Source: Micractinium sp. NFX-FRZ
Lineage: Eukaryota > Chlorophyta > Trebouxiophyceae > Chlorellales > Chlorellaceae
Reading direction: 5' to 3'
DNA length: 64,000 nucleotides
Assembly: GCA_029339195.1 (NCBI GenBank)
Contig: JAPTJF010000202.1
Location: forward strand, 1 to 64,000
Shown: positions 817 through 64,000 of the stretch, in pieces
Layout: every line of letters starts with the position of its first letter
Position numbering within the stretch: position 1 is the first letter of the stretch
Notes under the pieces: generated by a model
The model's input: the letters and a program-made list of their open reading frames with translations, nothing else
What the model was told of the DNA's origin: nothing
The model's database searches: none
Translations under genes and position numbers: made by a program

Positions 817-3800
817 TCAGTCAGCGGCCGCTCCCGTGTGGAAGGAGCGGGGCGGAGTGACAACTTCCCCAGTTGCTGGATCCGCCAGAGCCAGCGCGCC
901 ACAGGAGGGCAGGCCCACCACGTCAGCAGCCTGTGCAAAGCGAGAAAGGAACCTGCAGAGCTGGTAAGGGGCGAGGGAAGGAGGATGTGTCGGTCGGGCA
1001 GGCAGCCAGCAGCTCAGCAGCGGCTGCTAGCACAGCGCCCAAAGTCGCAGGCCTGCAGGCCGCTGCCTCTCCGGCCGCTGCCGCTCTCCCTTCCCCTGCG
1101 TACCCTGCTACCTTGCCCACCTGCAAAGACCCACCGCCAGCCCACTCACAGCTCGATGGCAGGCATGTTGCTTGGCTCGCCCCTGGGGTTTGCGCCAGCC
1201 AGTGCAGCCAGCAGCGCAGCTGCCGACTCGTCAGGGCAGGCGCTGCGCGTCCCAGGCAGCGCCGCCACCGCCCACTGAGCCTGCCGGCCTCCTTCCCGCA
1301 CGGCATGGTACAGCTGCTGGCCTGCTGCCTGGGGGCTTGCACAGATCCAGTAAGACAGCTGGAGGGTTTGCTTGGCGTCGGGGGATGCCCCACTGCCCTT
1401 TGCGCCTGTGCTAAAAAAGGCGGTGGCACGGGCAAGGCAAAGCAAGCGAGTCAGTGATGGGGGCAGGGGCAGCATGCCTGGCAGCATGCCTGGCAAGAAC
1501 AGCATGCTGTGCAGCAGGGGAAGTGCACGCAAACCAGCCCTCTCAACCACCAACTGCCAGCGCAGGCAGAGCAGGCAGGCACCTCACCGTACTTGATGCC
1601 TGCCTCGGGCGTTTGCCAGAGGAAGGTGGTGGGGTCGAACTCCGGGCAGGCGGCTGCCTCCGGCTGCACCTCCAGCCCAGCATACAGCCTGGCGCCAGCT
1701 GGCATGCCATCATCGACTGCGCCAGCTGGCGGGCCGTCACTTCCTTCACGTGCCGGCGCCATGCCGGCGGTGCTTGTGGGCGGCACACTTTCCCTGGCTT
1801 GAGGCGGAGCGCTGTCTTCAATCGCAGGCGGAGCGCTGTCTTCAACTGCAGGCTGCATGCTATCGCTGAAGAGGGGCGCCACACTGGCGCTCCGGGGAGG
1901 TCTGCTGTTTTCAGCTGCGGGAGGCATGCTGGCTTTGAATGCAGGCGGCATACTGCCCCTGCCTGAAGGCATCAGGCTGCCGCTGGCTGCAGGCTGCATG
2001 CTTCCACGGCTGCTTTGCGTTGCCGCGCTGTTTTCGGGTGTAGGCGGCATGCTCCCTCCAAGCGCTGCAGGGCAGGCCGGAGGGCAGCGGGCACCAGCCA
2101 AGGCATGTGTGTGTCGCCACCCGGCTGCCCATGCATGCAGGTCCAGGTCAGTGCCTTTCAGCCAAAGCCGGCCCACCTTTGGGCGTCGCGTTGTCCTCAG
2201 CTGTGCTGTCAAACACGGCGGCATCCTCCACAGCACTGCCAGTGTGGATGTAATATGTCCTGGCGCTGTCAGCTTCCACGACTGCCAAGGTGGCACAGGC
2301 AGGCACCCCCACGGCATCAGCCGCCTGCATGATGCTCCGGAAGAGCCTGCACAGGGGCGGCAGGAGGTTGGATGCCAGCTGGCAGGAGAGCAAGCTACTG
2401 CCCACGTATCACACACATGGTCAGTTGCATGCATGGGTCAGCTCGTGGGAGCACCTTGGCTAAGATCACATACATTTGCAACGGCAGGTACACTGCACCA
2501 GCTGGGCGAAGCAAGGACTTACTCCTGGACTGCTGGCAGGCCGCCTGGGCGGACCGTGAAGAACGCCTCCTGCAAGGCACTGCCCGCCTCGCTGCTGCAG
2601 TTGGCGTTGAGCAGCGCCTGCACCCAGTCCTGTGCCTCCTGGCCTCCCCCCTCTGCTGCCGCCTGCAGCTTGCGGCCCGCTGCCTGGGGGTCCTGGCACA
2701 GAGCGCGCATGAGGCCCGCCACGCGGAGAGGCATTGGCGCCACCCTGCTGCTGTTCGTGTCTGGCATGGCATAAGGGAGGCGGACAGGAAGGGGAAGAGT
2801 CACGACTCTGGCACTTGGACCGAAGTCAGCTGCCCCAGTTCTTGCACCCTGAAAGCAACGGCCCGCCCTGCATCGCAGCCCATGTTTCTACTGATCTCGG
2901 TGCGACCCTCTCACCATACTTGATGGCAAAGGGGTCTTCCCGCCAGGTGGTGCCCTCAGGGTCAAACACATCGCAGGCGGCAGTGGAGCCCCCCGTCCAG
3001 TTGTAGGCAAGCATGTACGTCATGTTTAGCTGGGCAGCCTCCAGGGCAGGGGCTGGGGCCCGCTCTGGCGCTGGGGCGGCTGCGCAGCAGGTTGCACGGG
3101 CGGAAGTGGGAAGGCCAAAGCCATCTGAGCGGGGGTGTAAGCTAGCTTATGGCGGCGCCACCAGGAGTCGCCCCGACAAGCAGGTGGGAACAGGCTCTGC
3201 GCCAGTATTGCCCCAGGAAGCTAAAAGCAGCGCCCCACCTGCGATCTCGCCACCCGTGTGCAGGGCGTAGCTCTCCAACAGCTCCCCTGTGGCGCTGTCC
3301 TGGAGCACAAGCGACAGGCAGGCAGGGCGGCTGGCTGCAGCGACGAACCCTTGAGCAAACCTGCAGTGGTGGGGGCAGGAAGTAGGCAGCATAGGTAAAC
3401 CTGCATGTGCGCAGGCAGGCTGGCAGGCAGGCAGGTGGGGCTAGCAGGGCGTGCATAACAACCACACGTGCAGAGTTGGCCGCCCCGCAGCTTGCTCACG
3501 CTTCGACCGCCTGGAAGTCAGCGAGAAGTTCAGTTCTGATCAAAGAATCGAGGACGCGGCAGCCAGACTGAAGGTAAGCCTCCACTGCCGTGCGGGCCTC
3601 CGCGCCGCCCATCTTCACGGCATGCTGCAGGCGCTGGGCCCACGCTGCCTCGTCAGAGCAGGGGGTGCTCAGCAGCTGGTCCAAGATCGAGGGGTGGACA
3701 GCAGGGCCGCTGCTTGACGCACCTACAGGGCAGGGTTACTAAGCAGTATAATTGAGGTGAGGCAGGGGTGAAAAAACTTCTCCCAGAGAGGAGAAGCTAT

Positions 3801-4534
3801 GACAAGACTGAACTGCCAATAAGCCTCGGCGTCACTGACGTGCCATGTGCAGCTGCCTCACCGTAGCGGGGGCCCGGAGGAAAGGTCCAATTGCCTGTGG
3901 CGGGATCTGGCTGGGCGCAGGCGGCAGTCGTGTTGCCAACCATGAGCAGCCATTGGAGGTGTACTGCCGGGTCGGGGAGTGACTCTGCAGGGGCAAGTTG
4001 GACACGCCAAGAGGGCGCGTACAGGCAGGAGCACAACTGACCTCTGAGAGACAGTACCAACTCAACTGGCAAACTGCAGGGTAAAGATTTGGCAACCGCA
4101 CATGCAAGAGCTGCACGCGGCATGTGCACCCTTCCCAAATATTGCACACGGTCTCACCGGGCGCAGGTGCGGCTGGCGCTGCCGCCGGCGCTGCGTTGTC
4201 CATGAGAACACGTTCGGCATCAGGGGGCAATGACACACTGTAACTTAGCTCTGAAAGCTCCGCAGCGGGTGGTGCAATGTGGCCTGGGACCTACAAAAAT
4301 CAAGTGAAACTAGTGAATGCGTGACATCCGCAGCGGCGCCTGCTCAGTGGCAAGGGGCAGCAGGCAGGGCAGCAGGCAGGGCTGCTGCAGGGACCTCCGC
4401 TCAGCGCAGAGGTCCAGCTGCCCCACGCCCGATTTCTGAGGTCTATCACGCACCTCAGCGAGCAACCTCGCAGCGCTGCAGCAGAAGAGGGCCGCGAAGC
4501 AGGCGAGCGGCAGAGCTCGGCGGGCGGCTGGCAT
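817..4534 (-). CDS. Gene A: secreted protein with three tandem alpha-beta-gamma module sets
   Basis: Spliced gene of an unrecognised family. Exon 1 (4534-4454, 27 codons) begins with ATG and encodes a signal peptide (MPAARRALPLACFAALFCC...). Exon 2 (4290-4158) is a Pro/Ala linker. Three module sets follow. Set 1: alpha 3984-3862 (ESLPDPAVHLQWLL, ending in a phase-1 intron), beta 3722-3500 (PCSDEAAWAQRL, then MGGAEARTAVEAYL), gamma about 3360-3239 (FVAAASRPACLSLVL, then YALHTG). Set 2: alpha about 3049-2915, beta about 2775-2517 (LCQDPQAAGRKL), gamma about 2400-2150 (AADAVGVPACATLAVV, then YYIHTG). Set 3: alpha about 1710-1590, beta about 1415-1153 (ICASPQAAGQQL), gamma about 950-817 (AADVVGLPSCGALALA, then FHTG), with stop TGA at 817-819. 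Between sets 2 and 3 lies a Ser/Pro linker repeating SM(P/Q)PA and EDSAPP (about 2080-1720). The single-set relatives are genes B-F at 52-64 kb. The long Pro-rich stalk of those genes is absent here. Function is unknown; secretion is inferred from the signal peptide. Ends are well supported, some inner junctions are approximate. Confidence 0.72.
1720..2080 (-). repeat. Coding Ser/Pro repeat linker in gene A
   Basis: The minus-strand frame repeats short peptides such as GSMPP, GSMQPA, ASMPPAAENS, DSMQPAVEDSAPP and AIEDSAPP. At DNA level two near-identical copies of about 24 bases lie side by side at about 1805-1852. It probably forms a flexible, possibly O-glycosylated spacer between module sets 2 and 3. 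Confidence 0.55.
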
Positions 4535-36762: not shown

Positions 36763-36833
36763 GGTGGACTGTGTGTGTGTGTGTGTGTGCGGACTTTTGC
36801 GTTGAAGAATAAGAAGAGGGAGGGGGGGGTGGG

Positions 36834-36889
<56 letters not shown>

Positions 36890-37801: not shown

Positions 37802-38208
37802 CAGCAGCGTGCCAGCACGCCGTCATGTCTGTGTCGTGCATGACATGATATGCATGCTAGGCCGTTCCTGCAAGCTACTGGCGCGGCCACACCCTGCCGT
37901 TGGCTGGCAGTTCGTTGAGCCGCCAGTTTGCCCACATGTGCAGGAGAGGGAGTCCCCACTGCCTCTGTTTGGGATTATGGGAGTCCCCTGCATACACTGG
38001 TGAGCACAGGGGTGGGTGGGTGGGTCAAGGGTTAAGGCTCGGCCTGCCCCAGTAGCCCTCAAAACAGTGGCCGAGGCCTGCTGTTGAGAAGCCGCCTCAC
38101 CTCACCTCACCTGTAGTGGTCCGCTTGGAGCCATCTCGCACCAGCCACACCCAAGCCAATGGCAAAGCAGGGCGGGGAGAGTTGATTTGAGAGGTTGAGG
38201 TGGCCGAG
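37802..38208. other. Gap left of the inverted-repeat element
   Basis: No gene recognised. It includes 38125-38156, a 32-base exact inverted match to 43866-43897 in exon 1 of the sulfotransferase gene. Short palindromic tracts (tgtcatgcacac, catgcatgtcatgcat) lie just to the left at about 37690-37760. Confidence 0.45.
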
Positions 38209-38779
38209 TTGCGCGCACGCAAACTCAGCTGTACAAAAAAGAAACCGCCGCCCACCCGAAGGCAGACGCCGCGGCGGGGCGGGCGTAGTGCAAGGCACGC
38301 CCTCAGCCGCAGGGTGGAACACCTGCTTGATCGTGCTCACACCTCGGTCAGGTAAGTATGCTTGAATCGGGAAATGACCAGAGACCTGCCCCGACCGGGG
38401 GTAAGCACCTGGCCAAAGGTGGGTTATGGGGCGGCGGCGGCAGGAATGCACTGATTTTCTGCTCCGAACCGCCGTCATTTGCGTGCGCATCTCATCTCCA
38501 TTGCTGTACCACTAAGCTCTTGTCAGATAACGGGCCATCGACGACTGTTTGCTGGCTGGGGCCTTCACGCCAGTCACTGCACAAGCGCCTGCTGGCTGCA
38601 GAAGACCGACCGCTGGTCGCCAGTAGTCAACTGCAGAAAGCCGCAAGAAGAATGCCGATCGGGCGGTAAGAGGCGGGCACACAGGTGGCGCCCCCGCCGG
38701 CAGCGGCGGCGGGTGGTTGGGGGCAGGCATGGGTCGAGCGCAACCGCCGCATCACGCGTCCTGAGCAGTCGACACTGCC
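38209..38779. repeat. Left terminal inverted repeat
   Basis: 571 bases, beginning ttgcgcgcacgcaaactcag and ending cgacactgcc. It pairs with 42766-43345 in reverse complement. It has no coding signature of its own. Confidence 0.85.
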
Positions 38780-52293: not shown

Positions 52294-54313
52294 TCACAAG
52301 GGCGTGCCTGTGCGGTACACATACTGGTCGTACAGCTGCCCCGCGGAACCCACCACGGCCGCAGCACCGCACGCTGGCACGCCTGCCGCATCCGCTGCGG
52401 TCGCATAAGCAGCCAGCCACGCCTGGATGGAGGGCAGGTCTGCCACCGCACTGCTGAAGGTGCCAAGCGCGGCCAGGGCTACAGGAGCGGGGCAGGAGAA
52501 GGAGGGGCATGTTGAGGCATGCGCCGGCACTGCGGGCATCACCACCCCACTTTCTTATGATTGCTGCTTACAAGTCTCCAACCCAAAGCACGGCAAGTCA
52601 GCGCTCGAAACCTCAGCGGTGTAGCACGGCTGCTGCTTTGCAAGGGTGCGCCACCCAACGTAATCTGCCAAGGCCCGACCGCCTCACACTCACATGCCAA
52701 GGCCCGACCGCCTCGCACTCATATGCCAAGGCCCGACCGCCTCGCACTCACATGCGTTTGTGGCGGCGTCGGCATTGGGGCACTCTGCCTGGTCCAGCGC
52801 CGTCACTGCCACCTCTGCCGCCGCGCCGCCCTCCTGCACGGCGTCCCGGATTTGCTGGCCCGCAGCCGGTGTATCACTGCAGATTAGCTGCTCCAGCTGG
52901 CCGACTGCTGCGGGGTCGGGCTGGGCTGTGCCGTTGGCGCCTGCAGCGCGGTGGGGCAGCATGGGAGCGGGGACGAATGAGCCGGGCAGATTGGAGGGGC
53001 TGGAGCGCACGCTGTGCATGCTGTGTTCGTGAGCTGGCGGGCGATACCTCTGCGTGCACCCTTTGGGGAATCAGCCAGGCATGCTTGCCCGGTTCCCATG
53101 GCCAGCCTCCACCCCAGCCACCCACACACCTGCCCGGCAACCCACTGCCGCACACCCAAGCAGCACTCAACCCACGCACCATACTTGGTTGCGAATCGCA
53201 CCCACTCCTGCCTGGACGGATCGTACTGGTAGCACTGCACGGTTTCGCCTCCCTGGGCGGTACGGATGCTCGTCAGGATGTGGGCGTCGGCAGGGAAGGC
53301 TGCATGCAAGGGAGGGGACTCGACCGTCGCGGGCTGGGAAGCAGGCAGTTGGGTGGTCATGTGGCGGGCAAGGCGGTGTCTAGCTGGCTGGCAACCAGGG
53401 AGGGAGGCAGGCATCAGGCCCCAGCAGGCAGCAGCCGTGCTTGCCTGGGGTGGGTGGCATGGGAGGGGCAGGCACTGAGGTGGGGGGTGCCTCGGGTGCT
53501 GGGGCGCCAGCAAGGGGGGCAGGAGCTGGGGTGGGGGCTGCCTCGGGCGCTGGGGCTCCGCCAAGGGGGGCAGGCACTGGGGCAAGAGGGGCAGGGGCTG
53601 GGGTAGGGGGTACTTCGGAGGCCGGGACGCCAAAGAGGGGCCCAAAAGGGGCCTCGCCCGTGGGAGCAAATGCGACTGGAACAGGGGCAGGCGGAGGGGG
53701 CATACCGACTGGGATTGGAGGCGGGACTTCCACGGCAGGGCCCGGGGGAGGCATGGCAGCCAGAGGTGGCGGAGCAGCAGGGGAAGGCAGGGGTGACACC
53801 CCGTCCACTACGGCAGGCTGGGCCGGAGGCGGGGCCGGGACAGGCGGGGGTGGCGGGGAGGTTGGCATCAATGCGGCTTCAGGCACGACTGGGGCGGGTG
53901 TGGGGGGAGGCGGGGCGGCCGGGAGAGGAATGGTCAGCGGCGAGGGTGGCGGGGCGGGTGGGGTTGGTGGCAGCAGTACCGGGGGAGCTGGTTGGGCAAG
54001 CACCTCTGGAGTGAGGAGGCTCACGGCTGGACCCGAGGGAGCAGCTCCTGGCGCAGGCGGGGAGGGTATCTGGGCCAACCTCCTGCGAAGGGCATCGCTC
54101 TGCGCAGGGTGGTGGGGCAGCGATGCGCGGTGCGGTGTTCTGAGGTGTCACTGGAATTCCAGGGGTGGATTTGCTGCTCTTGCAGGTAACTTGCAGCATG
54201 GCATGCGCAGCGGCGCAGCTGAGCCGGCAGCAGGCAGCCAGGAGGGACGGTGTGCCGGCGGCAGACGCCGCAGTGCCGCAGCGAGGCGGCAACATCTTAC
54301 CTCGTCGCCCAAA

Positions 54314-54346
<33 letters not shown>

Positions 54347-54408
54347 GTTGCACCGAGGAGGAAGGCGCAGAGCCAGCCGGCCCGCACCGCCTGGCTGTTC
54401 CGAGGCAT
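52294..54408 (-). CDS. Gene B: secreted Pro-rich alpha-beta-gamma family protein
   Basis: ATG at 54408 gives MPRNSQAVRAGWLCAFLLGA followed by ten Ala coded by a GCA repeat, a signal peptide. Exon 2 begins at SDALRRRLAQIPSPPAP and is a long Pro/Ala stalk rich in PPP, PAP and APAPLA repeats (about 54100-53445). A GC-AG intron (53444-53300) separates it from the alpha module: FPADAHILTSIRT, VQCYQYD (53299 to about 53184). The beta module (about 52942-52752) has ICSDTPAAGQQI and EGGAAAEVAVTAL. The gamma module (about 52480-52294) has LPSIQAWLAAYATAADAAG, VPACGAAAVV and YVYRTGTPL at the stop. All module junctions are phase 1. The beta-exon donor lies within a 29-base tandem repeat. The Pro-rich stalk suggests a hydroxyproline-rich wall or extracellular protein; the role of the modules is unknown. 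Confidence 0.75.
52664..52756 (-). repeat. 29-base tandem repeat spanning a splice donor in gene B
   Basis: Three adjacent copies of ccaaggcccgaccgcctcgc plus actcacatg, with one or two base changes. The copy at the exon side contains the real donor (AACGCAT/GTGAGT on the minus strand). Another copy restores GTGAGT and one has it changed to ATGAGT. Confidence 0.75.
54316..54345. repeat. CTG/GCA repeat coding poly-Ala in the gene B signal peptide
   Basis: Ten trinucleotide units. On the gene strand they read as Ala codons (GCA) and form part of the hydrophobic core of the signal peptide, so length changes would alter secretion. Confidence 0.8.
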
Positions 54409-54875
54409 AGACGCGAGCAGACACGACAGCAGCGCGCCTCCGAGCCTTGGAACCTGCGGCTTTGCTGGTGGAGCCGGCGTTCTCATCGGTCCGTCTCCTT
54501 CAAGGACCTACCTTCATGGCGGCCGGCCACCTCAGCAGGTCTCCGAAGGAAAGCTGCTCTTGAGGTCGCAGGCAAAATGGCGTTCAATTTAGCGCAGGTT
54601 GATCAACGTATCACGTGTGCTCGGGGCTTGCTGGCTCGGCCGCGGTGAAGGAGCCCAGCGGGCACCGCAGCGGAGCCAGGCCTGCCTGCTTTGTCACCAG
54701 TGGGCCCATCTGTATTTACACGCATTCATGGTCATGCCTTGCAAGTTTTAACACATCGAAACCATCAGACGAGTGCTGGGCATCTTGGGTGGCTTCTAAG
54801 TGTCAGGCAAGCGTTACTGCATGGCACACGCACAGGGGCCCGGTCTGCCCCGGACCGCTCCCACTGCCCCTGGCG
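54409..54875. promoter_or_regulatory. Spacer between genes B and C
   Basis: Contains the gene B promoter next to 54409 and the gene C 3' end with TGTAA at 54716-54720. No other element is supported. Confidence 0.4.
54716..54720 (-). terminator. TGTAA-type polyadenylation signal, gene C
   Basis: TGTAA on the minus strand 156 bases after the gene C stop. Confidence 0.45.
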
Positions 54876-56671
54876 TCACACTGGGTTGCCGGTGTGGATC
54901 AGGTACTGCTGCACCAGCTGGCTCCCTCCCCCCCTCACAACAGCTATGCTGGCGCACAGCGGGAGGCCGATGGCGTCGGCAGCTGCCACTAGGCCGGAGA
55001 ACCAGGCCTGGACGGCAGGCAGGTCCTCTGGGGCGCCGCTGTTGACGAGGTCAATGGCCGCTGAATCTGCATGCCACACAAACCACATGAAGACGTCATT
55101 CACAGCAAAGGCGCGGTGATGATGGCGAGCGTCCTTTTGGGCAGCACACCCATCTACCCCTAGTCGTGGCAGCTTACAGCCACGACTGCAGTCTGACCAG
55201 TACTCAAGGCACACGCTTCTGGCCGGCCCAGCGCAGCCCACCAACCCGCCCGCACCCTCACATGCGTCGCCAGTGGCCTCCTTGTCGTCACACTGATCCT
55301 TCGCTTCCACAATCAGAACATGCACAGCCACTTGCGCCCGGCTGCCTCCCGCCTGAACGTCTGCAGCCAGCCGCTTGCCAGCCGCCTTTGCATCGCTGCA
55401 CACCAAGTGCACTAGCTCGCTGACCGCTGCTGCATCTGGCTTGACGGCCCCGGTGGCGTCTGCAGGGCTTGAGGCCCGTGTGGGGTCCAGGTGAGAGAGC
55501 AAATGAGGCGGGGAGGGGCCAATGAGCACTGGCCCATGATCGAGTGCTGGAGAATGCAGTGGGGCAGATGCGCACCCACACCCGGCACGCCCACCCCTCC
55601 AGAGGGCTCACCATACGCCGGTGACCTCTGCAGCTGCCAGTCCAGCTTCTCGGGCACATATTCCTTGCACCGCACCACCAGCCCAGTGTCGTACTGAACA
55701 GTAGTCGTCACAGCTGCATCGGGGGGCAGCTCTCCGACTGCAAGAAGGCAAAGGGGAGGCGAAGGGGCACGGCGGCGTGGGTTCTACCTGCCTAGGCGCC
55801 TGCATGCCCGCACCCCTCCACTTGCCGGCTCCCCAGCTGCGCAAGCTGCCACCTGCGAGAGGGAGGTGGCTGGGCTGGCAGCAGCCGTCTGGCTTGGCTG
55901 TGGGTCTCACCTGGGGCAAAGCTAGGCGGCGGGAGAGGCGTTCCTGCTGCTGTCTCCACTCCAGGGGGAGGTGGCAGCACTTGAGGGGGCGGGGGAGCTT
56001 CGACTGGAGGGGGCTCTGCCTCCGGTGGTGAGGGAAGGGTGGCAGGAGCTGGGGGGCCGCCGCTGTCAGCCGGGAGTGGAGGGGTCACAGTGGGTGACAA
56101 TGGAGGCGATGGGTGGTGCACCAGAGGAGGGAGAAGCTCAATGGTCGAGGGTAGAGGAACAGGCGCAGGGAGTGTGGGTGTGTCAGGAGCGGGAAGAGGA
56201 GCAGTGGGGACAGGAGGGGTGGGGACTGAAGGGGCAGGAGCGGGAGTGGCCACAGGTGGGCCGGGCGAAATGACGGTGGCTGTGGCAGTTGTGACAGCGG
56301 TCACGCTGGCAGCGGTCGTGGCGGCATGGTCGGGCGGCGGCAGGAGAGGCACTTGTGCCAGCCGGCGTGGCCCGAGGGTCTGCGGGGCAGCAGCGCACGT
56401 AGCAGGCTCGGAGGAGGACAACAACACGGGTGCATTCCCCTTGCAACGCATGCTGCAACGCATGCACCATCGTTCCACAGGCAGCCGGGCAGGGCGGCAG
56501 CGGAAGGCCGGCGGCGCGGCGGCACGGCAGCAAGGCTGGAGAGCGGCGGCAGCGGGGCAGGGCGGTAGCAATGTTTCGCACCTTGGGCACCACTCCGTCT
56601 GCTGCTGGACCCGCTGCTGCCAGACTCAGCACAATGCAAAGGAAGGCCAGCTCTTGCAGCCACCGAGTCAT
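54876..56671 (-). CDS. Gene C: secreted Pro-rich alpha-beta-gamma family protein
   Basis: ATG at 56671 gives a clean signal peptide (MTRWLQELAFLCIVLSLAAA). An upstream in-frame ATG near 56695 would add eight residues. Exon 2 starts TLGPRRLAQVPLLPPPD and runs through VTAVTTATATVIS into a Pro/Ala/Val stalk (56390-55912). Alpha (about 55741-55613): ELPPDAAVTTTVQ and VVRCKEYVPEKLDW. Beta (about 55464-55262): VCSDAKAAGKRL and AGGSRAQVAVHVL. Gamma (about 55064-54876): LPAVQAWFSGLVAAADAIG, LPLCASIAVV and YLIHTGNPV at the stop. Every module is bounded by phase-1 introns. RRLAQVP followed by the TVIS segment is also seen in gene D, so C and D look like the closest pair. Function unknown; extracellular location inferred from the signal peptide and stalk. 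Confidence 0.8.
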
Positions 56672-56844
56672 GGGGCATGTGCGATCGCCTTGCACGCGAC
56701 GTGCTTCCGTGTGCTACCCTCTCACGTCACTGACGCCTTGGATCCAAGGCCGTGACAACCTTGTCACCTTGGGGCGCGAACACGTCAGCAAAGGTAACCC
56801 ACTTGCCCTATCTTCTTTGACGACATTGCCATCACGTTCAAACA

Positions 56845-56849
56845 TTACA
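56845..56849 (-). terminator. TGTAA-type polyadenylation signal, gene D
   Basis: TGTAA on the minus strand 71 bases after the gene D stop, within the short gap before gene C. Confidence 0.45.
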
Positions 56850-56919
56850 CGTAGATAAGCAGAATATTTGCAAGGCCGGCGGAAGTGCGGCCATACACGC
56901 CTTATGTGTGTATGCCGTC

Positions 56920-58893
56920 TCAGATGGATCTGCCGGTGTGGATCTGGTACTGCTCCACCAGCTGGCTCCCCCCTCCCCTGACAATCGCTAGGCTGGCGCA
57001 GACCGGGGTCCCAACTCGGTCGGCGGCGGCCACCAGGCTCGAAAACCAGGCGTAGGAAGCCGGCAGGTCCTTTGGGCTTGGTGAAATGCTGACGTCGGCT
57101 GCAGCCGAATCTGCACATGACTCGTGTGGTCCAAGGGAAGGAGCAGCCGCGGCACGAGTTGAGAGGGGCAGGGACGCCCCAACTTACTGCAGTGCTGCTA
57201 GACGTGCAGTGTGTCAAGCTTGCATGCAGGCGGGCAGGCAGGCGGGCAGGCAGGCAGGGAACCAACACCAATCAATCAAGCACATGCACATCCCTCCCAG
57301 CCCACGCCGCCAGCTCACATGCGGTGCCCACCGCATCGGCACACCGAGAGTCCGCTTCTTGTAGCAGCGCATACACCGCCACCTCGGCCTGGCTGCCCCC
57401 CGCTTGGACGTCTGAGGCAATCTGCTTGCCTGCCGCCTCAGGGTCGCTGCACACTTGCTCTGCCAGCACACTGACGGCAGCCGGGTCCGGCTTGGCTGAG
57501 CCAGAGGCATCTGCGCAGGGAGAAGGAGGGGAAGGTGGGGTGCAGGCGGGTGGTGCTCTGGGGGACACTGAGGAATGGCAGGGTGGTCCGCCAGCGGCAG
57601 GCTGCAGCATCTGTAGGTCCCTGGCTAAGCTCTGGTGCAGGCGCATGGGTGAGGGTCTCTGCAAGCCGGTTCAAAGCCGGCCCACTCTGGATCCGTATGT
57701 TAGGCTCGGGGTGCACAGCCCAACCTGAGCAGTCCCCAGCTGCAACCCCACAGGTCTGCCCAGCTTTCCCGAGATGCGCACACAGGCTCGCCCTCGACAG
57801 CTGCCCAGTCTGGGCCACAGGGGGGCCTCCAGCTTGCCACAATGTATGAATGCAACCCTCGGGAGCAGGCTGCAGCTCACCATACGACTGTGAGCTCCGC
57901 ACCTCCCAGTCCAGCTTCACGGGCACGTACTCCTTGCAGCTCACAACCAGCCCGGGGTCAAACCGCAGGCTGGCAGTCACCGCTGCATCGGAAGGCAGGT
58001 CTGCAGGAGCAGCAGGGAGGGGAGGCAGGGAGAGGGTGGCAGGGTGGGCCAGGGAGTCGGTACAAAGCTCACAACCGTGCAGAACGGTGGCAGGCATTTG
58101 GAGGCACCAGGAGGCAGCTCCTCGCCTGAGACAAGGGTGGGGGAAGGCGAGGAGGCACGCTATCGAGAGTGCAAGTGAACCATGGCTCAAGGAGGCACAG
58201 GTCTGCCCGTGGCGCCTGCCCTGCCCCCCGCTGCATGCTGCTGCGCAACAGACGCTCGCTCCACCCATCCCATTACACGGAAGGCAACTGCTGGCTGCAA
58301 TGGCCAACACAGATTGCACACCTGTAGGGAACTCAGGCGTGGGGGCATCTGAGGACAATGTTTGGGGAGGTGACGATGCTGCGTCCGAAGGGGGCGCCTT
58401 CTGGCTGTCGGCTTCCGCCGGCGACGGCGGGGGACTGTCGCGAGGGGTCCTGGATGGGCGGAGCGGGGGCAGCAGCTCCACCACACCGGCTGGGGCAGCG
58501 GGTGAGATCACTGTGTCGGTGGGTGTGGTGACGGCTGTAACACCTGGGGGTGCGGGCACTTGCGCCAGTCGCCGTACGCGGGCCTGCGTGGGCGGTGCAG
58601 TGGGGGCATGGCCAGTGCACTGGGCTCTTTGCCAAGGGTATGCACCGCCAAACTGTGCCCTGGCAACAGGCAAGAAGCCCTGGCTGGCTGGGTAAAGCTG
58701 CATGCGTCTGCAGCCAGCTCTCTAGACGGCGGCACCCCCGCAGCGGCGGCACTCGCTACCGGCGGCACACACAGTGCGCCGGCAGGCTCACCTTGGGTCC
58801 CTCGCCCTTGGCAGCTGGCCCTGCTGCTGCCATTGCTGCTGCCAAGGTCAGCGCAATGCACGACCAGGCGAGCGCTTGCAGTGCCCGAGCCAT
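56920..58893 (-). CDS. Gene D: secreted Pro-rich alpha-beta-gamma family protein
   Basis: ATG at 58893 begins MARALQALAWSCIALTLAAA, a signal peptide, with a donor after GEGPK. Exon 2 starts ARVRRLAQVPAPPGV, then VTAVTTPTDTVIS and a stalk shorter than in genes B and C (58590 to about 58320). Alpha (58003-57886): DLPSDAAVTASLRF and VVSCKEYVPVKLDW. Beta (57511-57316): VCSDPEAAGKQI and AGGSQAEVAVYALL, then RCADAVGTA. Gamma (57112-56920): DLPASYAWFSSLVAAADRVG, TPVCASLAIV and YQIHTGRSI at the stop. Module borders are phase 1. The short gap to gene C (about 250 bases) is typical of the array. This member gives the clearest family consensus. Confidence 0.82.
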
Positions 58894-59231
58894 GGGGCGC
58901 GCACGCGGTGAGTTCGCACACACAAGAGCTGCCTCCGGCTAGTGCATCTCACCACAGGAGACGCCTCAGGGAGGCCGGTCAGGCTGAGGGCGGTGGGCGC
59001 GACAGCACGGAACACGTCAGCAGAAGGCTGCCTGGAACGTTGGCCGCCTCTTGCCCCTGCCTACTGGGGGGCATGCGGCACACGTTGCATCCTTGCTCAC
59101 AGATCCCACAAACATGAAAGTAAGAGGCATATAAAGGAAGGAAAATGTGTACAGCTGCAAAGGGGTGGGCCTTGGCGAGCAGGCCGGGTGGCATGCTGTT
59201 GCGGCCTCCTGCCTGCCGCCTCTCCTATTGC
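58894..59231. promoter_or_regulatory. Spacer between genes D and E
   Basis: Contains the gene D promoter at its left and the gene E 3' end at its right. No TGTAA or TATA element was found. Confidence 0.35.
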
Positions 59232-60944
59232 TCAGAGCTCCGTGCCAGTGTGGTATTGAAACTGGTCAAGGCGGCTGCCTGATCCGTCCACTACTGCAAT
59301 CGTGATGCACAGGGGGACGCCGGCCGCATTGCCCGCTGCAACCATTGACTGGAAGAATGCTTTGGTGGCCTCCAAGTCCGCAGTGCGCCCGCTGTTGACG
59401 TCATTCACCGCCGCGAGATCTACAGAGCGGGTTGTGAGAGGTTCAACCGCCTTGTTGGCGACAGGGGCAATCAAATGGGCCGCAACGGAGGCACGCGAGC
59501 TGGGAACTGCAGCGGGCAGGGAGTGGGCAGGCATGGGGCAGGCATGTCCCCCAGGCAGCGCAGCCCTCCCACACTCACAGGCCTCACTGCCGCACACACA
59601 GGCATCCGCGGCACTCACAGGCAGTTTGTGTGGCTTTGGCGAATGGGCACTTTGGTCCAGCAAACAGCGCTGCCACTGCCACCTCGGCCTGCGAGCCTCC
59701 CCCTTGGATGGCGCTCTTGATCTGCTGCCCTGCAGCCTCTGCATCGCTGCAGATCTTCTCGCCCAGCGATGCCACCGCCCCGGCATCCGGCTTGGTGGTG
59801 CCGGCGGCATCTGCAGAAGAGCAGAGGGGAGACAGGAGGGGGAGAAGGTGAGGTGAAGGCTCTGGGCAAGTCTGCCGCTCAGGTCCGCCCCGCTCGTGTG
59901 AATGGGGTCGACTTGGGGATTCTGCGCCAAACCGCCGTGTTCCCTGGCGCGGCCGCTCAGGGCACATGCTGCAGCCAGCACCCCCATTGCTTGTGCCCCC
60001 CTTGCGCTGCCCCAAGCACCCACTGCCATCCCAGCCCTCACACCCAGGCGCCTCTCTGCTCACCGTACTGTATGGAGGCCTCCTTGAAATCTTTGATGGA
60101 TGAATCGTAGTCCTTGCACTTGACCACAATGTCGCCAATCTGAATCACCGTCTTCACGCTGGCATCAGAGGGGTACCCGCCTGCGGCGAAAACACACCCA
60201 GTGGGACGCCCGGCAAGGCAGGCAGGGGCAGGCAACAGTGAGCTTGCTGCAGGCCACATGGGGGTCATGGGCGGGGTGAGCAGCGCTGCCGGCTGGTGGC
60301 TGTTTGAACACACCTGGTGCGGGCGGGGAGGGCGAAGGGCTGGGCGTGGGCGGGCTGGAGCTTGGGCTTGGACTGGGAGAGGATGGGGCTGGGCTGGGGC
60401 TGGGGCTGGGCGGTATGCCAGGCACCGGCGCTCCTGCCGGCACGACCACGACTGCGTGGAGGGAGACCGGGGCAGCAAGCTCGGGGGTAAGGGTGGAGCA
60501 GGCAACCCTGCCCGCAAGCAGGAAAAGCCAAGCAAGTCTGCTTGCCGGCAGATGAGGCCTGACTGCTCACAACACAGGCTGCTCGCCTGTTGTTGTGGTG
60601 GTGGTAATGACCGCGGCGCCTGGCGGCACCGGAGGCGTGCCCGGAGGCAGCGGCACCGGCGACTGGGCAAGCCTGCGGCCGGCCCTCCAGTCCTGCAGGG
60701 TGGCGTAAGATATTGTTGCACAACAGAAGCTTTGCGCGAGAAATCAGTGGATACAGGGAGGCGCAGCACGATGGGCGGCGGGCCGGGGGCAGGCGGCTGC
60801 CAGCGGCAGCGGCAGCGGCAGCGGCAGCGGCAGCAAGGTGCCTCCTCGCCTTCTTCCTACCTCGTAACCAGAAATCGCTGATGCTGCTGCCGCCGCTCCC
60901 AGGAGAAGCAGGCAGGCGGACGCCAAAGTCAGGGATAGCGCCAT
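59232..60944 (-). CDS. Gene E: secreted Ser/Pro-rich alpha-beta-gamma family protein
   Basis: ATG at 60944 gives MALSLTLASACLLLLGAAAA, a signal peptide. Exon 2 has GRRLAQSPVPLPPGTPPVPP and VITTTTTG (about 60700-60590). A further exon is a Ser-Pro dipeptide stalk of the (SP)n type, SPSPSPAPSSPSPSPSSSP (about 60450-60320), typical of algal hydroxyproline-rich glycoproteins. Alpha (about 60180-60066): YPSDASVKTVIQIGD and VVKCKDYDSS. Beta (about 59812-59628): ICSDAEAAGQQI and GGGSQAEVAVAALF. Gamma (59420-59232): LEATKAFFQSMVAAGNAAG, VPLCITIAVVDGSGSRLD and QYHTGTEL at the stop. Module borders are phase 1. The stalk differs in composition from genes B-D while the modules are kept. Confidence 0.8.
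60796..60836. repeat. Hexanucleotide repeat (agcggc)n in gene E intron 1
   Basis: About six or seven copies of agcggc, starting near the signal-peptide exon donor. Non-coding in the spliced gene. Confidence 0.7.
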
Positions 60945-61579
60945 CAAACCAAGCAGGCTCCGCGAGGAAGGCGGTCAAGCAGGCATGAGTTTGCAAGACC
61001 GCCCCAGGCAGCAGGATGCGGCAGCAAGCGCTGGGGGGAGTGGGCCGTGCGCGCCCAGCCCTGGGAGGGTTCTTGGTCGGAGCGAAGGCACGTCGTCGGT
61101 GGCTTGCTGAGGTCCCGGAGCAGCCAAATGGACTAGAACTGAGACGTTGAATACTTACGCGGCTCCTGCAGGAAATTGGGCAACCCACCGCAGCATGGCT
61201 CCGCACTCGCGGCACTCGCGTCATTGCGAAGTGGCGCCTGGCTGGGAACGCAAGGGTCTGTGCAGCCACCAATCAGGATTCCATGTCCCGCTCTCCCTGC
61301 TCATTGATTTACTGACCGCCAGACACGATATATACATGCACATTTTGATGTATCAAGCTTGGAATAACCATGCAGGCTTGCATGCAGGAAGGCGCCAGGT
61401 GGGGCGGTGCGCTGTGGGCAGTGGAGTCATGTGGCGTTAGTGGATCCACAGGTCCAAACCGACTTGGCCGCATGCCACAAGAGGGAGGTCAAGCCTTCCC
61501 ATTCAGATTTTTTTGCTTTTGATGATGGACCTCTGCACATTGCACCCTTCTTCTGCTGCATTGCTGTGCCTGGCTGCCC

Positions 61580-64000
61580 TCAGCCAGTGTGGTACAGGCG
61601 CTCCTCAATGACAGTGTAGTCACTCTCATCAACCAGAGCAACGGTGGCACATACCTGTGGGGGCAGGGCACAAGGCAGGAAGCAATGCAGGCGGTCGGAA
61701 GTTGGTTGCCTGCCAAAACACATTCTGAACCGTCACGTGCCTCCCTTTTCTGGGCAACTGTTCCTGTCCATTGTTTTTTGTGCAATCCAAACCGGAGTGC
61801 CCCCGGAAGCGCTCCCTCTGTCTCGCCCTCCCACCCTCCCTCCCTCCCCGGGCCGAGGCATGGCCTCACCGGGATACCGACGCGATCTGCAGCCGCCACG
61901 AAGTTGGCCATCCAAGACTGGGTGCCCTCCCAGTCAGCTGGGTCGCCTGAACTTGGAAGGGGTGAGTAACAGTGCCGCGGTAAGCGACTGCAGCCCCGCC
62001 GTTGCCACCAGTTTCCCCCCATGTGTGGAGGCAAGCGGACAGATGATGTGCACAGCAGCGGTGTGGCGGACAGGGTGAGCTGCCTGGCTGCAGGCTGTGA
62101 CAGAAGCTGTGTGGAGGAGCTCTGCTGTCACAGAGGCACCGCTGCTGCATGCTAGTGGCCATCCCAGAGGCAGTGCCGCTTCTCACCCGTGTTCACAGCA
62201 TCTCCCGGGTGGCGCATTGCACAGGGGGAGAGGAGCCCATCAAGTGTGTGTATCAGTAGACATGAAAAGGCTGGGCCTCCCAGAGAGTGCAGAGCAGTCA
62301 GCCGCACCCACTGTAGGTGTACAGCAAGCCGCGCCAACCGAAGCCCCAACCCTGGCCAGGCATGACCCTGCACCCTGAGCTACAGGCAGGCCTCCTGCCC
62401 GGCTCACCGATGGCATACTGCCGACAGCCGGTCCGTGAAGCAGCAAAAGGGAAGGTTGGGGCAGTGAGTGGGCGAGTGCGCACTTCTGAGCAAGCAGGCA
62501 CCAGCTGCTGGTCTGCATGCCAGCCCTCGTGCAGGCGGAGCACACACTGGCTCCCACAAAATGCAGCGCCGTGTGCCACACGGCTAGCAGGCATCACCCT
62601 CTCAACCTTCCACCCAACACCACGGCCAGTGCTGACTCAGCCGGGCGCTGTCAGACAGCCCCTCGCCCTAGCTCTCCACCTGGTAAGTGTCGCTGGTTGC
62701 ATATTCGTCCGGGCAATCCTGCAGGGGATGGCCGGCAGGCGGCATGGTAGGTGCAGAGCACAACAGGGGGCAGACAGACTTCCCCTGCTGCGCCTGCTGT
62801 GCCTGCTGTGCTTCTCCTACAGGAGCACAACAGCAGGAGGGGAGGCGGGCAGGCACGCTGGCGGCATCCGACAGATGCACACACATGCTCACTTGACCAT
62901 GCCAAAACCTCGTGGCAGCAACTCGTCCCCACTTGCTGCCCCACGCACCGCATTGAAGAGGGCATACACCCACGCCTCGGCCTGCTGCCCCCCTGCCTCG
63001 ACTGCTTGCACCAACTTCTTGCCGGCAGCCCTGGGGCTGTCACACATCTGTGAGGCAATATCGGATGCCTGCCCGACCTCGGGCACCTCGCTGCCTTTGG
63101 CGGCTGCAGGAGGATTGGGGAGCACCGGGGAGAGAAAGGGGGCGGCCCCCATGAGGGGCAGTGCAGGCAAGGCATAGCAGGCACTGGCAGACAGTGGGGC
63201 AAGCAGTGCACGCTAGTTGTATCAGGGATGCTTACTAGTACTAGCTCCTGCGGGTGTCAGCAAGTGGGCCGGCGCAAGCCATGCTGCCCTGCCGCAGCAG
63301 CGCCACCCCAGGGTCCTGTCCCTCCCTCCACCACCTCTTAATCTCTCTAATGCGCCCCTCCCCCCGCCCCTGTGCTCACCATACTCCTGGCTGATATCTG
63401 TGGCCCAGCCGGTGGCATCCTCCCACACGTCACAGGTCACCGAACCTTCACCCGTGCTGCAGGGGGCAGGGGGCAGGGGTGGCGGTGAGCAACGCACGAG
63501 CGGCAGCGGTGTGCAGTGCCAGACAAATGGGCAGAGCGGCAGGCAGCACGGCCAACGTGTGAAGCGCTGGGAGGGCACACACAGGCGTCCTCCCCAGAGT
63601 GCCAGCGCCCTAGCAAGCAGCCGCCTTGCCTGATGGTGGTGTACACGCCTGCAGTTGAGGGCAGGCTACCTGCAGAGGGGCCACAATATGGGGGGACAGT
63701 TGGTTGGTGACTTACCTTGGAGCCTGGCGGAAGAGCTCGACAGGAGCAAAGAGCAGAGCACCGCCGCTAGCAGATCCCCCACCACCAGCGGTGGCACATG
63801 AACAACCGTTTAGCAGCTGGCAGGGAGGCGTGCAGCCTGTGCCGACCTGCAGCCTCAGCTGCGGAGGGCGAGGGTGAGGGCTGCGTTTGGGCAGGGGGCG
63901 AGGGCGCCGGCTGCGGGCTGGCAGGGGGTGAGAGAGGTGCCTCGGCGCCGGGAGGGAGTGTGGGCAGTGGCTTCACATCAAAAGAAGGCACCGGCGACGT
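61580..64000 (-). CDS. Gene F: alpha-beta-gamma family protein, 5' end beyond the window
   Basis: The 5' end is outside the window: the frame is open to 64000 (VPSFDVKPLPTLPPGAEAP), so signal peptide and start are missing. Next comes a Pro/Ser stalk, PPASPQPAPSPPAQTQPSPS (about 63940-63850). Alpha: SLPSTAGVYTTI (about 63670-63630), then after a GC-AG intron (63629-63457) STGEGSVTCDVWEDATGW to SQEYG (63456 to about 63380). Beta (about 63105-62900): MCDSPRAAGKKL and AGGQQAEAWVYALF. Gamma is split by an intron: WMANFVAAADRVGIP (about 61945-61872), then VCATVALVDESDYTVIEERL and YHTG with TGA at 61580-61582. The protein thus ends directly at the HTG motif. Between gamma and beta (about 61970-62890) lies a long intron with no recognisable exon. 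It is the most diverged single-set member of the array. Confidence 0.72.

Follow-up and report, generated by a model that had tools for sequence, protein, structure and literature searches.

The question raised by this locus is what kind of protein is encoded by the consecutive minus-strand genes that lie close to the end of the window, that is, of the first 64 kb (64,000 nucleotides) of contig C202, which is 103,272 bases long. The initial annotation took them for a secreted family without a name, with a signal peptide, a proline-rich stalk and three ordered modules (alpha, beta, gamma), present as five genes in tandem, and supposed that they might serve in defence, adhesion or assembly of the wall. 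Our searches spanned the whole genome (66.07 Mb in 838 contigs).

Gene models and extent of the array

The five genes are indeed present. A-D splice to open proteins (Table 1), their introns being GT-AG in our hand splicing with the exception of two GC-AG introns, and the signal exon of E lies beyond the window, with an ATG read by eye at contig position 64587, 587 bases past the edge. A-D share one layout: a hydrophobic N-terminus comes first, then RRLAQ-P and a proline-rich stretch, and after these alpha, beta, gamma and the stop. E keeps this order, but it has more introns, and SVRKFQ (by eye) in place of RRLAQ. The motifs first worded for the three blocks fit B, C and D best, but alpha starts with FPADAHI in A and with LPSTAGV in E, where GIP-VC is moreover split by an intron.

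Certain details of the models deserve mention. In gene A, RRRLAQIP stands near the start of the Pro-rich exon, and a GC-AG intron follows that exon. The gamma exon of gene D starts at 59506 according to hand splicing or at 59419 according to spliced alignment, which gives the better family fit, and the 10- and 15-base exons of gene E have their likeness to F and G as sole support. The beta-gamma intron of gene A contains 3.1 copies of a 29-base unit (window 52666-52755; 95% matches), and plus-strand open frames at about 49.7-51.9 kb of the window, with coiled-coil-like stretches rich in Glu, Gln, Ala and Leu, adjoin the array and perhaps form one gene (by eye).

Table 1. Family members modelled in the window and a fragment farther along contig C202
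Feature	Position (strand)	Parts or exons	State of the model	Profile score
Gene A	52294..54408 (-)	signal 54408-54301; Pro-rich 54099-53445; alpha 53299-53180; beta 52940-52752; gamma + stop 52478-52294	complete, ATG to stop; in-frame splice	334
Gene B	54876..56671 (-)	signal 56671-56582; Pro-rich stalk with RRLAQVP 56379-55911; alpha 55737-55612; beta 55459-55262; gamma + stop 55066-54876	complete, ATG to stop; hand splice	376
Gene C	56920..58893 (-)	signal 58893-58792; stalk with RRLAQVP 58583-58322; alpha 58000-57881; beta 57510-57319; gamma + stop 57110-56920	complete, ATG to stop; hand splice	365
Gene D	59232..60944 (-)	signal 60944-60861; 60692-60587 (RRLAQSP; then GC-AG intron); Ser-Pro stalk 60451-60314; alpha 60180-60064; beta 59810-59619; gamma to 59232	complete, ATG to stop; hand splice	366
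Gene E	61580..64000 (-), part inside window	domain exons 63667-63630, 63456-63380, 63103-62949, 62718-62680, 62417-62408, 62201-62187, 61946-61870, 61654-61583	Pro-rich stretch adjoins window edge; then stop after domain exons	336
W1	826..1708 (-)	domain exons 1708-1588, 1405-1150, 952-826		298
W2	2232..2993 (-)	domain exons 2993-2915, 2760-2523, 2346-2232	alpha start not found	235
W3	3246..4534 (-)	domain exons 3982-3862, 3722-3558, 3494-3413, 3360-3246 (third doubtful)	possible signal ATG 4534	199
J2	C202 about 79.1-79.5 kb	gamma-like fragment behind proline-rich stretch	alpha and beta undetectable	133 (spliced alignment)

The number five, on the contrary, has to be given up. The array extends past the window to about 97.7 kb of C202 and has 15 genes (A-O) on one strand, plus one fragment (J2), which is probably a relic copy. 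Three diverged copies (W1-W3) lie at 0.8-4.5 kb of the same contig, all 18 of its copies (W1-W3, A-O) being on the minus strand, and the spliced-alignment profile finds 8 further loci on other contigs. Copies were located with beta and gamma exon queries (C202 to 97 kb, its start, and the other contigs), and the profile was then applied to 29 candidate regions, 27 of which score above 150; these represent 26 distinct loci (18 on C202 and 8 elsewhere), c260c being a repeat of c260b that was left uncounted. The cut-off of 150 is our own choice; J2 (133) and c213 (91) fall below it, and the count is given without the weak places C260:23443, C260:26755-27494 and C100:114587.

With this profile the 18 copies on C202 score 199-416, and the highest control scores are 75.3 in 38 pieces from elsewhere in the window, 46.8 in 19 regions read on the opposite strand and 48.3 in 19 regions after shuffling. 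The spliced-alignment script prefers residues that fit the profile, which biases exon borders towards the family, and there are two less circular checks. A profile made from B, C and D only gives the other 15 copies 185-431, and the best of 38 control pieces reaches 129.5; J2 scores 130 with it, no better than control. A database protein from Chlorella sorokiniana (P0003, see below), used alone as a query, returns 43 hits with E<=1, the best at 1.3e-14, and 41 of the 43 are inside the 26 loci.

Signal peptides were called from hydrophobicity alone. Of the 15 array genes, 12 have a hydrophobic ATG 500-1250 bases ahead of alpha, compared with 17 of 120 control pieces; A and C have weaker candidates, read by eye, and for M, W1 and W2 the upstream search by hydrophobicity found no signal exon. 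A loose all-frame scan, which also returns stray matches, shows an RRL[AL]Q-like motif upstream, a short way behind the signal peptide, for A-D, F, G, K, L and M; it might be a processing site. Proline makes up 60% of the best 25-residue stalk window in A, 56% in B, 36% in C, 48% in D and 44% in E; these windows are in frame for A-D and by eye for E, those of F-O having been taken from any frame with no control. By hydrophobicity and composition, the combination of signal peptide and proline-rich stretch that broadly defines hydroxyproline-rich or chimeric wall proteins is clear in A, B, D and E and weak in C.

A single domain with four cysteines

The alpha, beta and gamma blocks are parts of a single domain of about 160 residues, and the idea of a protein "built from modules" is not supported, both because exons are shared between blocks and because hhalign finds no mutual likeness among the three. 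In c260b one exon holds both beta and gamma, in W1, W2, c84 and c239 the exon with beta runs on into the first part of gamma, and an intron interrupts alpha in E, F, J, K and c416. The domain also reads through unbroken in deposited proteins of Chlorella sorokiniana and Micractinium.

We aligned 24 domain sequences, namely the loci above 150 except c84, c155a, c155b and W3, together with the database proteins P0003 and P0004. Four cysteines are invariant in all 24; exactly four are present in 22 sequences and five in two. The other unvarying positions are a proline, both glycines of a GG pair, and two alanines. The best-conserved polar positions other than cysteine are a histidine in 22/24 (HTG) and an aspartate in 21/24 (A-A-D), none being fully invariant, and a tryptophan is found in 20/24. 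The heads are mostly acidic, with a net charge of -2 to -21 in 22 of the 24, the others being H (+1) and P0004 (0). Read by eye, the pattern of the secondary structure would be strands, helices, and then a helix with two strands. The cysteines would plausibly pair as 22 with 140 and 60 with 93, numbered as in copy I.

Relatives in databases

The initial annotation knew no named family with this layout, and this still stands after searches of Pfam, NCBIfam (where the gene C domain was the only query and had no match) and PDB sequences, which gave no credible relative. Full-length B, C and D have no Pfam match up to E 10. For 22 domain members nothing appears at E<=0.001; nine families are listed up to E 10, the best at 0.0039, and three database homologues give nothing significant either (best E 0.052). 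We took HpaB (E 0.0039, one of the 22 members) and PhageMin_Tail (three members, best 0.023) for chance. The gamma block resembles the helix-strand-strand part of GlcG/HbpS, but PF03928 is not among the nine families that the 22 members match up to E 10, and we rejected this candidate. Kinship with TAL effectors is an artefact of summed repeats in the PDB profile search: 24 chains reach whole-chain E-values down to 1.3e-14 by summing many near-identical repeats, but the best single repeat unit, among the 4 alignments listed, has an i-Evalue of only 0.19. The titles and abstract openings that our literature searches returned contain no description of this four-cysteine family.

Relatives do exist. 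Searches of 5.8 billion proteins returned P0001 (E 2.8e-8), P0002 (3.4e-12) and P0003-P0006 (7.4e-48 to 5.4e-7). The search that gave P0003-P0006 was limited to lengths of 0.55-1.75 times that of the query and could miss stalked full-length relatives; the family is probably under-counted outside this genome. As far as searched, relatives outside Chlorella and Micractinium are known only as unnamed records of metagenomes or databases. Since the best relatives are proteins of Chlorella sorokiniana and Micractinium, the source is presumably a chlorellacean green alga. Scans of prokaryote genome contigs with short-peptide patterns from single queries, which have limited sensitivity, gave none.

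Two of the database proteins are instructive. P0003 has the whole uninterrupted domain, the four cysteines, a hydrophobic N-terminus and RRLA, as in the array, but it has a Lys/Arg/Ala/Ser-rich tail and no proline-rich stalk. Its deposited name, "Holliday junction ATP-dependent DNA helicase isoform B", is backed by no significant Pfam match. P0004 (hypothetical protein ABPG77_000691 of Micractinium sp. CCAP 211/92) has the domain through HTG, with the four conserved cysteines plus one, but its deposited model includes no long stalk. Because both proteins are without a stalk, the stalk is dispensable, and the head is therefore the defining part of the family.

As for the overall plan, there are two known systems to compare. 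Pherophorins, the matrix proteins of volvocine algae, are secreted and consist of a globular part and a proline-rich rod, and in all these respects the array proteins are similar. However, PF12499 (DUF3707) is not matched at E up to 10 by full-length B, C and D or by the 22 domain members. Pherophorins are called hydroxyproline-rich matrix proteins in PMC10762512. Our whole-genome search for pherophorins was empty, and its controls were empty as well. Hybrid proline-rich proteins of land plants carry a signal peptide as well, but they have an eight-cysteine motif (8CM), in contrast to four cysteines in a larger mixed domain here. PMC2216038 describes them as having a cysteine domain at the C-terminus, behind a proline-rich part. 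A secreted proline-rich protein with a globular cysteine domain is a kind known in plants and algae; it is the head domain that is the new part.

Possible functions and evolution

On balance, and with modest confidence, we favour the interpretation that these genes of a Chlorella/Micractinium-type alga encode secreted wall or matrix proteins, in several copies, each with a disulphide-bonded head on a proline-rich stalk. The signal peptide would bring the protein into the secretory pathway, and processing perhaps occurs at the RRL[AL]Q-like motif which many copies have soon after it. Next would come the proline-rich, probably O-glycosylated stalk, in A-E at least, and the C-terminal end would be a single compact domain, about 160 residues long and closed by two disulphides. 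Anchorage in the wall or the extracellular matrix would be the task of the stalk, the head would bind wall polysaccharide or a neighbouring protein, and the paralogues would supply related but differing heads. We infer the disulphides, glycosylation, wall location and binding role. We prefer this interpretation because the proteins are secreted, because A-E have the stalk, and because the head with its four cysteines lacks the set of invariant polar residues that is typical of an enzyme; since no polar residue besides cysteine is fully invariant, the domain seems suited better to a structural or binding task than to catalysis.

It is less probable, yet worth keeping in mind, that these are secreted recognition or defence proteins, acting against bacteria, grazers or chloroviruses, whose many copies let the heads diversify. 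The proteins are secreted, their relatives have, as far as searched, the restricted distribution described above, and the tandem array is large, with several neighbours mutually closest in the tree (25 rows; c84, c155a and c155b left out). Support is strong for the groups B-C, E-F-G, J-K and N-O and moderate for H-I. Only 8 of the 22 inner branches of the tree are well supported; A joins D rather than B, c416 joins J-K, and P0003 and P0004 are unplaced. The grouping of neighbours fits stepwise tandem duplication, but the array as one clade lacks support in the tree. The duplications are not recent, because synonymous divergence in the seven neighbouring pairs is 0.66-1.68, the larger values being rough.

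However, the domain is conserved on average, which speaks against fast-changing heads. In neighbouring pairs dN/dS is 0.21 (N-O), 0.25 (H-I), 0.29 (J-K and E-F), 0.30 (F-G and B-C) and 0.32 (C-D), and the highest values among the 22 closest pairs listed are 0.60 for c155a-c155b, whose models are doubtful, and 0.54 for I-K. The range of 0.21-0.32 in the seven neighbouring pairs means that the genes are kept and that there is no rapid diversification of the domain taken as a whole. Selection for change is not seen in these domain-wide pairwise averages; the average is purifying selection, and such averages are compatible with change at single sites or in the stalk. Viral contigs also contain no relative, as judged by short-peptide pattern scans of single queries with limited sensitivity.

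In our opinion it is rather improbable that the proteins are extracellular enzymes or ligand carriers, with a site formed by the HTG histidine and the A-A-D aspartate and tethered by the stalk. The conservation of these residues, and of the tryptophan, speaks for such a role, but no polar residue other than cysteine is fully invariant, and neither the 22 members nor the three database homologues match a Pfam family at E<=0.001 (the best being the single-member HpaB match at 0.0039). Finally, chance alignment or dead repeats have next to no probability: GC-rich algal DNA does have many long open frames on both strands, and parts are missing from J2 and from some of the models beyond the array, but control scores are far lower, dN/dS is well under 1 over spliced exons, the domain is present in deposited proteins of two other algae, and P0003 as a lone query recovers the array.

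If the wall or matrix interpretation is true, at least 26 loci with one uncatalogued domain are a candidate set of outer-coat proteins of Chlorella-type algae, which are cultivated at scale. A family profile would then re-annotate misnamed or unnamed genes of Chlorella and Micractinium, and the four-cysteine domain would offer a solvable fold. One may go further and speculate, with considerable doubt, that the head is a new disulphide-bonded fold which arose in the Chlorella-Micractinium lineage and became the main head of wall or matrix glycoproteins there, in the role that pherophorins have in volvocine algae; the array could then be a toolkit for surface properties, such as autospore wall assembly, flocculation, and contact with partners or viruses.

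As for the rest of the window, GC content is 61-71% per 2-kb step across it, and a U1 spliceosomal RNA gene, found at 38203-38359 on the minus strand (81.4 bits), marks the DNA as eukaryotic. A 69-base run of nearly all G (91% matches) lies at 36818-36886.
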